Source: a virus. From it: 35,947 bases of DNA. The position numbers and the translations under genes are program-made. Positions within the stretch are counted from its first letter, which is position 1, and the number at the start of each line of letters is the position of its first letter. Of this stretch, positions 1 to 35,947 are shown piece after piece. The notes under the pieces are model-generated. The model searched no databases. It was not told the DNA's origin and saw only the letters and a program-made list of their open reading frames with translations. The stretch covers positions 1 through 35,947 of the IMG/VR virus record IMGVR_UViG_3300033153_002192, one strand, 5' to 3'.

Positions 1-114
1 AAGAACTGGTAGTTCAGCAGACGTTGTACCTATGGGTATCGACCACAGTTTGAAAGTGGCAACACTATTAGACTACGAAGCACCAGAGTACACAGATATC
101 TATGACTCTAAAAC
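1..114. repeat. Terminal direct repeat, left copy (circular overlap)
   Basis: Bases 1-114 are identical to 35834-35947. Both copies lie inside the major capsid gene and keep its reading frame across the junction. This shows that the contig closes into a circle (or a circularly permuted genome) with about 35,833 unique bases. A genuine T7-style terminal repeat inside the capsid coding sequence would be very unlikely. Confidence 0.95.
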
Positions 115-640
115 GGTTAACTTTGATGAAGTTGTAGAATTGGCTCAGACTATTGCAGGTGCAATGGGACGTAGAGACGATCAGGCAATCATTGATGCAA
201 TGTCAGCAAGTACAAACACTTTCGTTGATGCAGCATTTACCCTCGAAACACTAACAGACGCATCGGAACTACTTAACAAAGTAGAAGCACCAGCAGAAGA
301 CAGATGGTTCGTATGTGACGAAGCAGGACTTAAAGAGTTCCTAGAAACTACTGGTATCACATCAGCAGACTACAACTCAGTTAGACTACTTATGAGTGGT
401 GAGATTGATACATTCATGGGCTTCAAGTTTAAGATCATTGGTTCTAACAGAGCTGAGGGTGGACTTGGTGGTATTGCGTATGCTTTCCATAAGTCAGCAG
501 TAGGTCACGCAGTAGGTATTGACATGAACACAAGAGTAGACTGGGTACCTCACAAGGCATCTTGGTTATCACTTGGTATGTGGAAAGCAGGGTCAATCAT
601 CATTGACACAGAAGGCGTGATTAAAATCACAGCATCTTAA
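1..640 (+). CDS. Major capsid protein, C-terminal part (gene wraps round the window ends)
   Basis: This is the downstream part of the gene that starts at 35673. Joined through the 114-base overlap it encodes 266 residues. The protein should form the icosahedral shell, probably with an HK97-like fold; that fold is inferred from position and general character, not from a motif. Visible here are GRRDDQAIIDAM in a helix-rich segment and a C-terminal part rich in Gly and aromatic residues (GLGGIAYAFHKSAVGHAVG). It follows the scaffold gene and precedes a small decoration-like gene and the tail tubular genes, the T7 order. The frame is open from base 2; base 1 is the third base of a codon. Confidence 0.85.
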   Translation, partial: RTGSSADVVPMGIDHSLKVATLLDYEAPEYTDIYDSKTVNFDEVVELAQTIAGAMGRRDDQAIIDAMSASTNTFVDAAFTLETLTDASELLNKVEAPAEDRWFVCDEAGLKEFLETTGITSADYNSVRLLMSGEIDTFMGFKFKIIGSNRAEGGLGGIAYAFHKSAVGHAVGIDMNTRVDWVPHKASWLSLGMWKAGSIIIDTEGVIKITAS

Positions 641-19008: not shown

Positions 19009-19344
19009 ATGACTAACATAGACCGTGAAAATGCTGTACTTGCATCATTTTTATACGCAGATGATATGGGTACAGACAAAAAACAATCTTTTGAGCTAGA
19101 TAGTAGAATTTTTACCTCATCATACAGAAGAGCAACAGCAAACAAGATCAACGATGAAACCAATAACGATAAAATGTACGGGTACTTATCTGTAACACTA
19201 CAAGACTTGACAGCCAACACTATGTATGAACAAGAGTGGATTAATATACTAGCACAAACACCTCTTCCTTTTAGTATGGCAAAAAGAATACACAATGATC
19301 TTATAGTAGAGTTTAATAACAGAATAGCAAAAGGATTAAGGTAA
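19009..19344 (+). CDS. DnaB N-terminal-domain-like protein
   Basis: This 111-residue helical protein looks like the stand-alone N-terminal domain of replicative helicase DnaB. It begins DRENAVLASFLYADD, comparable to the E.AVLG.LL of DnaB, and continues LDSRIFTSSYRRATANKIND, comparable to the D.F....H..I...I of that domain. No ATPase motif is present; that part is supplied by the gene at 19895. AAGGATTTAAC precedes the ATG. Its stop overlaps the initiator gene start by one base. The DnaB assignment is by pattern only. Confidence 0.5.
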   Translation: MTNIDRENAVLASFLYADDMGTDKKQSFELDSRIFTSSYRRATANKINDETNNDKMYGYLSVTLQDLTANTMYEQEWINILAQTPLPFSMAKRIHNDLIVEFNNRIAKGLR

Positions 19345-19904
19345 TGGCAACTAAAGGAATATGGGTAAATATAGATATCATGAACGACACAAATCTAACT
19401 GCAAATGAGAAGTTTTTATTGGCAGAGGTAGATCAATTATCATCTCTTGAAGATGGTTGTTATGCATCAAATAATCACTTCGCAGAACTTATAGGAATTA
19501 CTAGAGCAAATGCTTCAAGAACTATAGGAAATCTTGTAAAAAAGAAGTATATAATAAGTAGTATCAAGATGGGTACACGTAATCGTGAACGTAGTATCAA
19601 AATGATAAAGACGTACTATCAAAATGATAATAGGGTAGTATCAAAACGACAAGAGTCTAAAGAGAATAAACAATCTAATAAACAAATAAAGAAACAAGTG
19701 CCTACGATAGAAGAGATAGAAGCTTATATAAAAGAGAAGGAGCTAGGTGTATCAGCAAGTAAATTCTTTAACTACTTTGATGCAGGTAATTGGATAGACA
19801 GTAATGGTAAAAAAGTCAAGAATTGGAAACAAAAATTACTTACATGGGATAATCATGCTAAGCCCACAGATGCACCAAAAAAGAAAGAGCGAATATGGGG
19901 TTAG
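19344..19904 (+). CDS. Winged-helix replication initiator (lambda O/DnaD-like)
   Basis: This 186-residue protein has an N-terminal winged helix (about residues 15-75: LTANEKFLLAEVDQLS, then NHFAELIGITRANASRTIGN with the recognition helix, then LVKKKYI). A basic, low-complexity linker follows (about 76-125) whose DNA carries four iterons. The C-terminal segment (PTIEEIEAYIKEKELGVSA, then FFNYFDAGNWIDSNGKKVKN) resembles the tail of phage replisome organisers that contact a helicase or its loader. The arrangement is that of lambda O: it should bind the iterons and recruit the helicase encoded next. It overlaps the ATPase gene by ten bases. Confidence 0.75.
   Translation: MATKGIWVNIDIMNDTNLTANEKFLLAEVDQLSSLEDGCYASNNHFAELIGITRANASRTIGNLVKKKYIISSIKMGTRNRERSIKMIKTYYQNDNRVVSKRQESKENKQSNKQIKKQVPTIEEIEAYIKEKELGVSASKFFNYFDAGNWIDSNGKKVKNWKQKLLTWDNHAKPTDAPKKKERIWG
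19559..19650 (+). repeat. Iteron array inside the initiator gene (candidate replication origin)
   Basis: Four direct repeats with core TATCAAAATGATAA are spaced in helical register: TAGTATCAAGATGG at 19559, TAGTATCAAAATGATAA at 19592, TACTATCAAAATGATAA at 19614 and TAGTATCAAAACGAC at 19636. Start-to-start distances are 33, 22 and 22 bases. The array lies in the linker region of the initiator gene and is followed by a purine-rich, AT-rich stretch (19651-19700), as in lambda ori inside gene O. Confidence 0.75.
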
Positions 19905-20854
19905 AAGCAAAAGCAAAACAAGCATTTGAATTAAAAAACAAATACATACTTGAATATGACAGAGACAACATAAAAGAAGCTAAAAAATTAGAGATGCAAT
20001 ATCTCACATTAAGAAGAGAAGTTTTAACTGAGATTGATAATACTGCACTTAGACAGAGATCAGAACCTATATCCATAGTAAGGGAAAGAGTATTAAATAA
20101 AAAAAAGCCTAAGCGAATAGAAACAGGGATAAGAGAACTTGATTATGAGTTGGTAGACAATCAAATGAAGAAAAGAGAGATAAAGGGAGGCTTTGCACTT
20201 GGTAACTTTATTCAGATAGCAGGAAGTAGAGGCAGCGGGAAGAGTTCTATTATGATGAAGATACTAACCGGGTTTAGTAATTATGAAAAAACGTGTTGGT
20301 TTGATTTTGAAATGGGTGAGAGTAGGGTAGTTGAGAAACTAAACGATTTTACGCACAATGACAATAATTTGCTTTATTATTCCTCATCAAGACAGTTGAG
20401 TGATGTGGTAGATGAGATAAAACTACTCAATGCGATGGGGGTTAATCACTTTGTGGTTGATAGTGCTATGAAAATTATCGTGCCAAACCTAGATAACTAC
20501 AATAGATTTTCTGTGATCAGCTCTGAACTATCATCACTCACAAGCTCATTAGGGATAAATATATACATGATTAACCAAATGTCACAAGAAAGTGAAAAGA
20601 CAGGTATTTTGGCTATTAAGCATGGGAATGACGCAGAATATGACGCAGACTTTATTTTTTATATTGTGCAGATGAGGTCAAAAGATAAGAACGATAATTT
20701 AATGACAGATGATTTTGATATGCCTATTTACGATGACGACAGTAGATTATTAAAATGTACAAAAAACAGACAAGATGATCGCCTGTTCTCGGTTATTATT
20801 CAGAAGAGTTCCATTTTTGGGATAGTGCCAGAAATCATACCGTTTCAAGGATAA
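19895..20854 (+). CDS. DnaB-like (RecA-fold) replicative helicase ATPase
   Basis: This 319-residue protein carries a RecA-fold ATPase. Walker A is GSRGSGKSS (110-118), the segment CWFDFEMGE (about 134-142) matches the SLEM motif of DnaB with Glu139 as catalytic base, Walker B is NHFVVDS (184-190), and IYMINQMSQ supplies the sensor Gln. CTKNRQDDRL near the C-terminus corresponds to the DnaB KNR finger region. The first 90 residues are helical and basic. It lacks the DnaB N-terminal domain, which seems to be encoded at 19009. It should unwind DNA at the phage origin, or act as a helicase loader. Confidence 0.7.
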   Translation: MGLEAKAKQAFELKNKYILEYDRDNIKEAKKLEMQYLTLRREVLTEIDNTALRQRSEPISIVRERVLNKKKPKRIETGIRELDYELVDNQMKKREIKGGFALGNFIQIAGSRGSGKSSIMMKILTGFSNYEKTCWFDFEMGESRVVEKLNDFTHNDNNLLYYSSSRQLSDVVDEIKLLNAMGVNHFVVDSAMKIIVPNLDNYNRFSVISSELSSLTSSLGINIYMINQMSQESEKTGILAIKHGNDAEYDADFIFYIVQMRSKDKNDNLMTDDFDMPIYDDDSRLLKCTKNRQDDRLFSVIIQKSSIFGIVPEIIPFQG

Positions 20855-21354: not shown

Positions 21355-21600
21355 ATGAACACATACAAACTAAATTTTGCAAGTACTTGCCCTAATGACA
21401 ATGCAGTAGATAATTATAAGCTCACGATAAAAAGCAAGAAAATCATCATGGTTGAAGATATACTTGAGGTGGTGGCAGAAATAAAAAAAGAAGCAAAATA
21501 TCAGGAAGAGATACACGATACCCTAAAAAAGAATTTTCCAGAAGCAAAAATTAAAATGGTTGGGTGGCATTTAGGAATAGAGATAACAACCAAATGCTAA
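21355..21600 (+). CDS. Small protein coupled to the DpdA-like gene
   Basis: This 81-residue protein (YKLNFASTCPNDNAVDNYKL..., ending GWHLGIEITTKC) has a beta-alpha-alpha-beta look: N-terminal strands, two acidic/basic helices and a last strand. Its stop lies seven bases inside the next gene. It is not a QueD homologue, since the HGH-type zinc motifs are missing. The tight coupling suggests a partner of the transglycosylase-like enzyme, but this is inferred from position. Confidence 0.5.
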   Translation: MNTYKLNFASTCPNDNAVDNYKLTIKSKKIIMVEDILEVVAEIKKEAKYQEEIHDTLKKNFPEAKIKMVGWHLGIEITTKC

Positions 21601-22325
21601 AATATTATGGAACACCACTAACACCATTAAAAACTTTTAACGAAGTTATGCTTGGTAGAAGATGTTTAATCCCATACCCTAGACCACAAGACCTAAAAAG
21701 GGCATTAAAAATATGTGAGGGTATCATTATTGATAATGGGGCATTTACGATATGGAGACAAAACGGACTTCTGGAAAAAGGCTATTTTGAGTGGGATGAT
21801 TATTATGACTTTCTTGTAGACATTAAAAATGATATAGATTTTTTCTTTATACCCGATGTGATAGACGGAACAGAACTTGAAAATGATAGACTTATTCAGG
21901 AGTATCAATATATAAATTATCACGATAGAGACGAAATGAAAGGTGTTCCTATATGGCACATAAATGAAAGCATGGAAAGACTTGACAGGCTAATGGGTGA
22001 TTTTGATTTTATAGCAATAGGTTCTGCTGGTGAATTTGCACAGCTCGGTACTCCACAATGGGAGCAAAGAATGGATGAAGCTATGAGAGTGTTGTGTGAT
22101 AAAGAGGGATATCCAAAAGTAAAAATACATATGCTTAGGTGCTTAGACCCTAAAATATTTACACGGTTTCCATTTTATAGTGGTGACAGCACAGCACTAG
22201 CACAAAATCATAAGAGAGATGGATGGAGGCAGATAGTTGATCGTATAGAGAAGTACGACAGCCCAGAGAAATATGAATTTAGAAAATTTTATGAAACAAA
22301 ATGCCTGTTCGGAGAAGAAATCTAA
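21594..22325 (+). CDS. DpdA-like tRNA-guanine transglycosylase family enzyme (DNA base exchange candidate)
   Basis: This 243-residue protein reads as a compact TGT-family barrel of the DpdA type, enzymes that replace guanine in DNA by 7-deazaguanine derivatives. Visible motifs are MLKYYGTPLTP, IIIDNGAFTIWRQNG (Asp47), FFFIPDVIDG (Asp88), VPIWHINES (His122), FIAIGSAGEF, KIHMLRCL (His179) and YSGDSTALAQNH (Asp198). The Asp residues are candidates for nucleophile and base. ATG 21594 is chosen because the family begins with this YYGTP segment. No preQ0-synthesis genes (folE, queD, queE, queC) are seen, so the substrate would come from the host. A tRNA-directed or other role remains possible. Confidence 0.65.
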   Translation: MLKYYGTPLTPLKTFNEVMLGRRCLIPYPRPQDLKRALKICEGIIIDNGAFTIWRQNGLLEKGYFEWDDYYDFLVDIKNDIDFFFIPDVIDGTELENDRLIQEYQYINYHDRDEMKGVPIWHINESMERLDRLMGDFDFIAIGSAGEFAQLGTPQWEQRMDEAMRVLCDKEGYPKVKIHMLRCLDPKIFTRFPFYSGDSTALAQNHKRDGWRQIVDRIEKYDSPEKYEFRKFYETKCLFGEEI

Positions 22326-34462: not shown

Positions 34463-35152
34463 ATGTCAGAAGAAACGACAACGACCTCGGAAAGTACAGA
34501 AGCTTCCGAAACAACAACAGAAGCAACAGTAATAGACCAAACAACAGGTGAAGAAACGATCACAACCTATGTAAATGGCAAGTATGAGAGCGTATCTGCA
34601 CTTGAAGATGGATACAACGAGCTACAGAAAAGCTACTCTCAGAAGCTAGGTGGATTTGATGGAGCACCAGAAGCATACGAATATGCAGAGGGCGTAGAAA
34701 GTACACCAAGAATAGAAGCACTGGAGAAGTGGGGGAAAGATAACCAACTATCGAACGATGGCATCAACTCACTCATAGCTATGGATGCAGAAGCAACTAA
34801 GGCGACAAGTGACGCATGGATAGCAGAACAGAAAGATATTCTAGGGAAAGATGCAGATACTAGGCTAACTAATGTAGCAGACTGGGCGAAGGCTCAAGTA
34901 GGTGAGGACTATATGACAGCATTTAACGGAATGATAACATCTGCAAAAGGTGTGGAAATGATGGAAATGTTTATGAAGAACTCACAAGGCGTTGCACCTA
35001 CAGTACAGAAGTCAACTCCACAAGCTGCGAGTAAAGAGCAACTACATGAGATGAGATATGCTATAGATAAGAACTCAGGTGAAAGACGTATGAGTATAGA
35101 CCCAGCATACAGAGCCAAAGTAGAAGCAATGGAAGCTGAGTTGCACGGCTAA
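34463..35152 (+). CDS. Capsid scaffolding protein (T7 gp9-like)
   Basis: This 229-residue acidic protein has a Thr/Glu-rich disordered start (EETTTTSESTEASETTTEAT), then KYESVSALEDGYNELQKSYS and a helical body, and a C-terminal helix with SIDPAYRAKVEAMEAELHG. This layout, with DPAYR near the end, is typical of T7-type scaffold proteins that guide capsid assembly and leave before maturation. It lies between portal and capsid genes as in T7. Confidence 0.8.
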   Translation: MSEETTTTSESTEASETTTEATVIDQTTGEETITTYVNGKYESVSALEDGYNELQKSYSQKLGGFDGAPEAYEYAEGVESTPRIEALEKWGKDNQLSNDGINSLIAMDAEATKATSDAWIAEQKDILGKDADTRLTNVADWAKAQVGEDYMTAFNGMITSAKGVEMMEMFMKNSQGVAPTVQKSTPQAASKEQLHEMRYAIDKNSGERRMSIDPAYRAKVEAMEAELHG

Positions 35153-35250
35153 CTTTTATCTAAGTAAGTACCTATAAAATATGGTATTCCTATAATTGCT
35201 ATAGCGAATACCAACAAGTTGACTATCGTCTCTCCTATTGCGTAAAACAT
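35149..35250 (-). CDS. 33-residue minus-strand membrane protein
   Basis: On the minus strand an ATG at 35250 preceded by AAGGAGAT opens a frame (MFYAIGETIVNLLVFAIAII..., ending YFIGTYLDKS) with one transmembrane helix. It ends over the scaffold stop codon. The ribosome binding site is excellent, but the gene is short and opposite to its neighbours. It could be a small membrane effector. No promoter is obvious. Confidence 0.4.
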   Translation of the reverse strand: MFYAIGETIVNLLVFAIAIIGIPYFIGTYLDKS

Positions 35251-35350
35251 TCTATCTCCTTTAGTTCCAATAAGACAACCACAGTTGTGTGTAGCTTTCT
35301 CTTATCAGAGTGATTGCGTAAGCATACCAAGAAGATAGATATTTTGTCAA

Positions 35351-35507
35351 CGTGAATAACTTTCAATATGTGAATAAGATGTGAATAACTCCATGATATG
35401 TGAACAACTTTCACAAAATACAACAATAATGCCAATATATATGCGAATAACTACTCTTTGATGTGAACAACTATGTGAATAACTAAAAAAGAATTAAGTT
35501 ATTCACA
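35351..35507. repeat. Cluster of Campylobacterota-type DnaA boxes (origin or regulatory region)
   Basis: Nine-base boxes matching TTATTCACA (or its complement) occur at 35351-35359, 35369-35377, 35380-35388, 35399-35407 (TGTGAACAA), 35442-35450 (TGCGAATAA), 35462-35470 (TGTGAACAA), 35474-35482 and 35499-35507 (opposite strand). Most are followed by CT. The TTCAC core is the DnaA-box core described for Campylobacterota. The region is AT-rich and non-coding. The rest of the 520-base gap (35251-35350) shows only a short ACAAC/GTTGT hairpin. Confidence 0.75.
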
Positions 35508-35515
35508 TACATTTG

Positions 35516-35524
35516 TGATATAAT
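35516..35524 (+). promoter_or_regulatory. Extended -10 promoter for the capsid operon
   Basis: TGATATAAT combines TATAAT (35519-35524) with the TG of an extended -10 box. No good -35 is present. The last DnaA box (35499-35507) lies where a -35 element would be, so DnaA binding could influence this promoter. The transcript leader before the capsid ATG is about 140 bases. Confidence 0.5.
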
Positions 35525-35593
35525 GGGGCTAGAATATTAAACTCTAGACACCTCTCACGAGCCTAATCTGTTTAAGTGTTCCAAGTGTATTTG

Positions 35594-35632
35594 CATTTGA
35601 AGCCTTGAGTCGGTCAAGGACACCTCCAAATG
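35594..35632 (+). other. Two-tier hairpin in the capsid mRNA leader
   Basis: CCTTGA (35603-35608) pairs with TCAAGG (35614-35619) around GTCGG, and outside it CATTTG (35594-35599) pairs with CAAATG (35627-35632). No U-tract follows. The element lies 40 bases before the capsid ATG. It may stabilise the capsid mRNA or control its translation. Confidence 0.5.
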
Positions 35633-35672
35633 ACGAAGCAATAAACCATTTTAAAACAGACAAGGAGAAGTT

Positions 35673-35947
35673 ATGTCTCAGAATTTATCTGGCGTAGCAC
35701 AAGAGCAGTTTGACAGCGAAGTAAAACACGCATATCAAGGGCTTAAAACACTTAGAGAGTGTGTAAAAGTAAGAAACAATGTAGTCGGTGACAAATACGA
35801 CTTTAGATTGATGGGTAAAGGTCAAGCAACACAAAGAACTGGTAGTTCAGCAGACGTTGTACCTATGGGTATCGACCACAGTTTGAAAGTGGCAACACTA
35901 TTAGACTACGAAGCACCAGAGTACACAGATATCTATGACTCTAAAAC
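35673..35947 (+). CDS. Major capsid protein, N-terminal part (continues at base 1)
   Basis: ATG 35673, preceded by AAGGAGAAGTT, opens the capsid frame; the first 91 codons lie here and the frame continues into the left end through the 114-base overlap. The N-terminus is MSQNLSGVAQEQFDSEVKHA and runs into a segment rich in basic residues (ECVKVRNNVVGDKYDFRLMG). The full protein is 266 residues, shorter than T7 gp10A (345). It follows the scaffold gene after a 520-base regulatory gap. Confidence 0.85.
   Translation, partial: MSQNLSGVAQEQFDSEVKHAYQGLKTLRECVKVRNNVVGDKYDFRLMGKGQATQRTGSSADVVPMGIDHSLKVATLLDYEAPEYTDIYDSK
35834..35947. repeat. Terminal direct repeat, right copy (circular overlap)
   Basis: This is identical to bases 1-114; see the left copy. 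The frame of the capsid gene is kept across the joint. Confidence 0.95.

Follow-up and report, generated by a model that had tools for sequence, protein, structure and literature searches.

The major capsid gene of the phage genome IMGVR_UViG_3300033153_002192 is preceded by an array of eight DnaA-type boxes. The best explanation of this arrangement as a whole, to which we give a probability of about 0.6, is that the array is an operator bound by host DnaA within an exchangeable cassette that drives head genes. Such arrays suggest that host DnaA may control when virus particles are built; if this is true, the host replication initiator supplies the timing of late phage genes. Promoters controlled by DnaA and clusters of its boxes are known kinds of system. 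No account of DnaA boxes at late or capsid promoters of phages was found in the open-access literature, and on this basis an exchangeable cassette of such boxes at head-gene promoters looks like a new form of a known kind. Throughout, the window is the whole stretch of 35,947 nt, L numbers are viral loci and G numbers are host-class genomes.

An array of DnaA-type boxes upstream of the capsid gene

The sequence-only reading had described eight dense boxes in 157 bases, mostly in one orientation, in an AT-rich non-coding gap before the capsid gene, and all of this was confirmed. The boxes lie at exactly 35351-35507, seven on the minus strand and the last one inverted on the plus strand (Table 1). 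Six of the eight are perfect matches to TTRTTCACA, boxes 1 and 5 have one mismatch each, and the TTCAC core (positions 4-8 of the 9-mer) is kept in seven, with TTCGC in box 5; a longer 12-mer, AGTTRTTCACAT, recurs in the array. The gap (35153-35672) has 27-31% G+C around the array, and the only ORF of at least 60 aa in it, a mechanically called TTG frame of 66 aa on the minus strand, was not taken as a gene. Downstream of the array come a predicted extended -10 promoter, a leader and the capsid ORF. Since matches to the box pattern with up to one mismatch are at chance number over the whole window (31 versus a mean of 29.2 expected), the signal is their clustering: TTRTTCAC occurs seven times per 157 bp in the array and at most twice in 200 order-3 Markov genomes.

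Table 1. Features of the window discussed in the text.
Feature	Positions	Strand	Remarks
Major capsid gene, remainder	2-640	+	continues across record ends
O-like (lambda-O-like) replication initiator	19344-19904	+	
Four iterons inside O-like gene	19558-19652	+	start spacing 33, 22, 22 bp
DnaB-like helicase	19895-20854	+	
Scaffold-like gene before gap	34463-35152	+	weak Phage_T7_Capsid assembly match, below cut-off
Element U, 5' boundary motif (TTCTTAYCAGA..TTGCGYAAGCATAYC)	35295-35333	+	shared with L108, L100, L020/L101, L104
GTCAA motif	35346-35350	+	directly before box 1; same junction in L108, L100, L162, L165
Box 1 TTATTCACG	35351-35359	-	1 mismatch
Box 2 TTATTCACA	35369-35377	-	
Box 3 TTATTCACA	35380-35388	-	
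Box 4 TTGTTCACA	35399-35407	-	
Box 5 TTATTCGCA	35442-35450	-	1 mismatch; reads TTATTCACA in L108
Box 6 TTGTTCACA	35462-35470	-	
Box 7 TTATTCACA	35474-35482	-	
Box 8 TTATTCACA	35499-35507	+	inverted; over -35 position, same place in L108 and L100
Extended -10 TGATATAAT	35516-35524	+	predicted; -10 kept in relatives L005, L010, L020
Capsid leader	35525-35672	+	covarying hairpin CCTTG 35603-35607 / CAAGG 35615-35619
Major capsid gene, first part	35673-35947	+	first 91 aa match major head protein phrog_3437, E 5e-11

The end of box 8 is 11 bp from the TATAAT of TGATATAAT, so that a box overlaps or adjoins the core promoter, as expected of a DnaA-controlled promoter, in the window and likewise in L108 and L100. 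The distance from the last box to the -10 varies between cassettes, from 11-12 bp in these three to 6 bp in L020 and in L004 (degenerate box), about 28 bp in L165 and about 50 bp in L104.

The boxes resemble DnaA boxes of Campylobacterota

Three epsilonproteobacterial consensuses with a TTCAC core, as given in PMC5043019 (A. butzleri HTWTTCACW, S. denitrificans HHATTCACA and W. succinogenes TTWTTCACN), are all matched by TTATTCACA. The box alone leaves the host unfixed, because it also fits the general E. coli consensus used in the same source, TTWTNCACA. We additionally searched 397 genomes of the class of G001, a Campylobacteraceae MAG, for two 12-mer-type boxes within 30 bp (GTTRTTCACAT-N0-30-GTTRTTCACA). 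Four genomes had a match. In three of them (G089, G302 and G398) it flanks dnaA; in the fourth (G416) it is close to the end of a contig, and no dnaA was visible there. A backwards control pattern gave no match in the 397 genomes. Host box composition was taken from clusters of at least three boxes (73 boxes) at 30 dnaA loci, namely L124, which itself belongs to the best-scoring of 150 genomes, and 29 others from these. These boxes prefer A/T at position 3, A at 9 and T at 10, which, with the flanks, are the only informative positions because the search fixed TT-N-TTCAC; position 3 in the phage boxes is A or G. Spacing between same-strand boxes in the phage arrays (n=59, one cluster per locus at 22 chosen loci) was mostly 11-12, 18-23, 30-32 or 43-44 bp, with none at 14-17 or 24-29 bp, and same-orientation boxes at host dnaA loci (n=42) were mostly 11-12 bp apart. 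Spacings of about one, two, three and four helical turns are as expected for DnaA molecules aligned on one face.

By comparison, the identification of the boxes as Campylobacterota DnaA boxes is well supported, in agreement with the sequence-only reading of the core. The array shares its TTCAC-core 9-mer and its clustering with the epsilonproteobacterial oriC clusters described in PMC5043019, and its AT-rich gap and similar spacing with the host dnaA loci that we examined; it differs in that those oriC clusters adjoin dnaA and the phage array, judged from its sequence alone, lies at a capsid promoter. A CRP-type palindromic site was also considered and does not fit the spacing, the only opposite-strand neighbour pair being 24 bp apart.

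The phage and its probable host

The phage carries a podovirus-like set of portal-like, tail, terminase and capsid genes. The nearest named phages by portal infect Pelagibacter, Methylophilales and Vibrio, at about 30% identity, and no DNA-level relative of the window was found in the phage collection. The two ends of the record share an exact 114-bp repeat, which falls inside the capsid gene, and the record is therefore probably a complete circular or permuted genome. Matches of the DnaB-like helicase to phage records numbered 52 (38 Helicobacter, 13 'Bacteriophage sp.' and one Sulfurimonas), and the best 20 of the 52 all have Helicobacter or Sulfurimonas hosts. From this we infer a host in the Campylobacterota, and we go no further because the O-like gene matches phages of other hosts and the capsid relatives sit in MAGs labelled with many taxa; these mixed labels left a host call from genomes with capsid relatives unsettled, the helicase being more informative. 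No DnaA domain IV was found in the phage. Three named controls, Helicobacter phage KHP30, prophage Hsp11_5569 and Sulfurimonas phage SNW-1, are without such an array.

The array behaves as an exchangeable promoter cassette

From 5' to 3' the cassette consists of element U, GTCAA, the eight boxes and the extended -10. In the lineage of the window, the same leader and -10 also occur in L010 and L005, which lack the boxes. L020, whose portal is 78% identical to that of the window, differs from L010 in a stretch of about 290 bp, which holds element U and six strict boxes and ends exactly at TATAAT; on both sides of it the two sequences align. In L108 the array lies between terminase and portal (phrog_156) genes and has eight boxes at the spacing of the window, the same inverted box and the same -10, with 194 of 252 positions identical in the aligned stretch. 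Among its relatives, L179 and L180 (portal 98% identical) have no boxes and carry another upstream element with the palindrome TGATTAAGTTAATCA, which resembles TGATTAAGTCAATCA of L010, and L181 (portal 96%) has neither boxes nor palindrome element. L108 was the only one with an array among the 75 portal relatives examined, itself included (75 of 80 scanned; L197, L210, L219, L228 and L251 had little upstream DNA and were left out). Lastly, L165 has a box array before its scaffold and capsid genes, and six relatives with capsids 50-78% identical have at most one box each, some of them with short upstream DNA (seven of eight scanned including L165; L264 left out); L258, with a capsid 78% identical to that of L165, is its cassette-absent counterpart.

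Conservation in related phages, proposed earlier as a check, was mostly absent among capsid relatives, but the geometry is kept between unrelated phages. At least two strict boxes upstream of the capsid were found in 2 of 79 capsid relatives (L020 with six and L004 with two plus a degenerate one; 79 of 80 scanned, L076 left out as having no upstream DNA and several others having short upstream DNA). In the window, L108 and L100 the boxes follow one another at 18-11-19-43/44-19/20-12-24/25, degenerate boxes counted, and the positions invariant in all three amount to 64/72 in boxes, 43/85 in spacers, 37/61 in the 5' flank and 14/23 in the 3' flank. Between the window and L108 alone, identity is 66/72 in boxes, 59/83 in spacers and 64/84 in flanks. 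Furthermore, L162 and L165 share another cassette (262/373 aligned; score 266 versus at most 58 in 100 shuffles), and L020 and L104 share a third. Comparison at E 1e-6 detected no protein relationship within the pairs window/L108, L020/L104 and L162/L165, a test limited by short contigs (L108 4.2 kb, L165 5.1 kb, L020 8 kb). These comparisons indicate that the arrays pass between unrelated phages as ready-made parts of promoters. If so, promoter-upstream cassettes are exchanged independently of the genes that they drive, and near-identical phages with and without the cassette are natural swap experiments.

Other modules were seen at the same site. The near-palindrome TGATTAAGTYAATCA is an alternative module in two unrelated phage lineages, at about 5660-5720 in L010 and before the -10 in L179/L180. 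Several promoter cassettes, with DnaA boxes or lacking them, are bounded on their 5' side by element U (TTCTTAACAGAAGGTTTGCGTAAGCATATC); it also occurs without boxes in L267, L271, L272 and L274, and in L271, L272 and L274 a third module, AGTTTTRSTGTATAGCTTTTARCCAATTA.., lies between it and a promoter. The element U pattern is absent from the 397 host-class genomes. As an RNA structure it was unconvincing (six folds, z-scores -0.05 to -1.53), and it is perhaps a protein site or a recombination boundary.

Arrays in other viral contigs

Two pattern scans of viral contigs (28 and 29 stretches) and one inverted-pair scan (13) yielded L083-L110 and L155-L178. At least four boxes within 300 bp were present at 24 of these loci, some on the same contig. 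Box-pattern matches inside ORFs led us to set aside L097, L098, L107, L110, L171, L176 and L177; L085 and L099 were kept although a crude ORF caller flagged them too. Head or packaging genes neighbour the arrays in L087, L095, L099, L101 (the same as L020), L104, L108, L157, L162, L165 and L168, together with L175, an L168 look-alike, and, by similarity, L103. The gene that follows the array encodes the capsid in the window and L020, the portal in L108 and the scaffold in L162, L165 and L104. Other arrays lie on the early-gene side (L160, L167 and probably their relatives L091-L093) or near replication genes (L106, helicase; L166, primase; L089 and L172), and immediate neighbours were uninformative in L083, L085 and L100. 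The PHROGs scans covered selected flanking proteins, and these neighbour lists carry no claim of head-gene enrichment. The DnaA arrays of phage contigs are not of one kind, because in L157 (2500-3100) the DnaA boxes, which precede terminase genes, are accompanied by three iteron-like CCTATATTGTGGGRTTT repeats, a combination that is a possible phage-plasmid origin.

Two further observations were made on these contigs. In IMGVR_UViG_3300028490_000029, which holds L085 and L099, the same three-box stretch occurs twice, before two different genes. The head-morphogenesis gene of L104 (258-2072) has its head-protein match broken by a long insert that looks intein-like.

Predicted control of the capsid promoter

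The operator reading leads to the following scheme. Host DnaA would bind the same-face boxes cooperatively, in steps of about 11-12, 18-20 and 43 bp, and would extend to the inverted box 8, covering the -35 position of the extended -10 promoter, so that bound DnaA would set whether host RNA polymerase starts the capsid transcript. We lean towards repression early in infection, because box 8 lies over the -35 region; since promoters with an extended -10 can work without a -35, DnaA might also activate from upstream. Replication from the O/iteron origin would then multiply the boxes, eight per copy, and DnaA would be titrated and repression relieved, which would couple capsid synthesis to phage copy number; the same titration could also starve the host oriC. 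DnaA binding, promoter activity, the sign of control and titration are all what we infer here.

Of the three functions offered by the sequence-only reading, a tie between late transcription and host DnaA fits best, because cassettes are exchanged directly upstream of the head-gene -10 in unrelated phages, with the control itself predicted from sequence. Against promoter control, most capsid relatives manage without the array, some arrays lie away from head genes, the distance between last box and -10 varies among cassettes, and the three named control phages have no array. DnaA is described in PMC8203912 as both an activator and a repressor of transcription: it represses its own promoter, an effect relieved by extra boxes via titration, and it activates ori-lambda transcription. 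The autorepression of dnaA provides a model for repression relieved by extra boxes, with the difference that in the phage the extra boxes would come from phage replication. Similarly, ori-lambda resembles the case predicted here in that host DnaA acts on transcription in a phage with an O-type origin; the lambda sites covered in PMC8203912 act on replication-region transcription, whereas our array sits upstream of a head-gene promoter as an eight-box, swappable cassette. A wider scheme can be put forward tentatively, in which Campylobacterota phages trade cassettes upstream of the head-gene -10 and the DnaA cassette is a copy-number sensor, its titration switching on capsid and portal genes and stopping host initiation without a phage late activator.

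Alternative readings of the array

The array might instead be a datA-like sink that mainly soaks up host DnaA and stops host rounds, its place at a promoter being incidental. It has eight boxes in one place, with almost none elsewhere in the genome, a spacing like that of host dnaA-flanking arrays, and counterparts in several parts of phage genomes; like datA, it is a multi-box cluster outside an origin. A sink would not need to sit at a promoter, yet the cassette is gained and lost just upstream of the head-gene -10 in three lineages, and box 8 lies identically over the -35 region in the window, L108 and L100, all of which makes titration as the main function unlikely. Both datA and P1 oriR are DnaA-box clusters outside oriC, as the array is, but datA is not a promoter and the P1 boxes are part of an iteron origin, so that the array differs from both.

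It is quite unlikely that the array is a second or auxiliary origin, at which DnaA would open the AT-rich array and load phage or host helicase, and this part of the sequence-only reading is disfavoured. The dense same-strand boxes and low G+C do resemble the array upstream of dnaA in G089, and some other phage-contig clusters have iteron-like neighbours, as in L157; however, an O-like initiator gene with internal iterons lies about 15.7 kb away in the phage, GC skew does not switch lastingly near 35.4 kb, and close relatives are without the array, some of them with another promoter element at the same spot. The marks of a chromosomal oriC, a dnaA neighbour and a GC-skew minimum, are absent at the array, and the initiator and iterons expected beside a phage origin are both at 19.3-19.9 kb. 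Iterons inside an O-type initiator gene are the layout of lambda, and this gene is therefore a better origin candidate than the array; its iterons are the likely phage origin. The O-homologous region of the L010 phage likewise has three 22-bp repeats. As the main origin the array was also rejected as unlikely, given the phage's own O gene and iterons, the lack of a lasting skew switch and its gain and loss between relatives.

That the site is merely DnaA-box-like and serves as the operator of a phage-coded or other host regulator is very unlikely: several small window proteins without a family match could supply such a regulator, but the same site occurs in phages that share no detectable protein relationship, and it agrees in sequence and spacing with the boxes beside host dnaA genes. 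A chance cluster or assembly artefact, for which the chance level of single boxes genome-wide could be cited, is already refuted by the recurrence of the eight-box geometry in two other contigs, and none of the 200 simulated genomes exceeded two TTRTTCAC per 157 bp.

Other features of the genome

The leader RNA hairpin has five pairs, four of them with compensatory changes, and 97.6% of cells paired in an alignment of 17 sequences from capsid upstream regions, a subset of the window, L003, L004, L005, L010, L011, L013-L016, L018-L023 and L036. Its covariation score was higher than in all 500 shuffles and in every slid version, and it is flanked by the conserved motifs AGAYACCTC..GAGCCT..ACACC. 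Rfam gave no gathering-level match, the leader hairpin included, and one meaningless sub-threshold match. Additionally, the phage has a queuine tRNA-ribosyltransferase-like gene at window positions 21564-22325 (phrog_887, E 1e-55).
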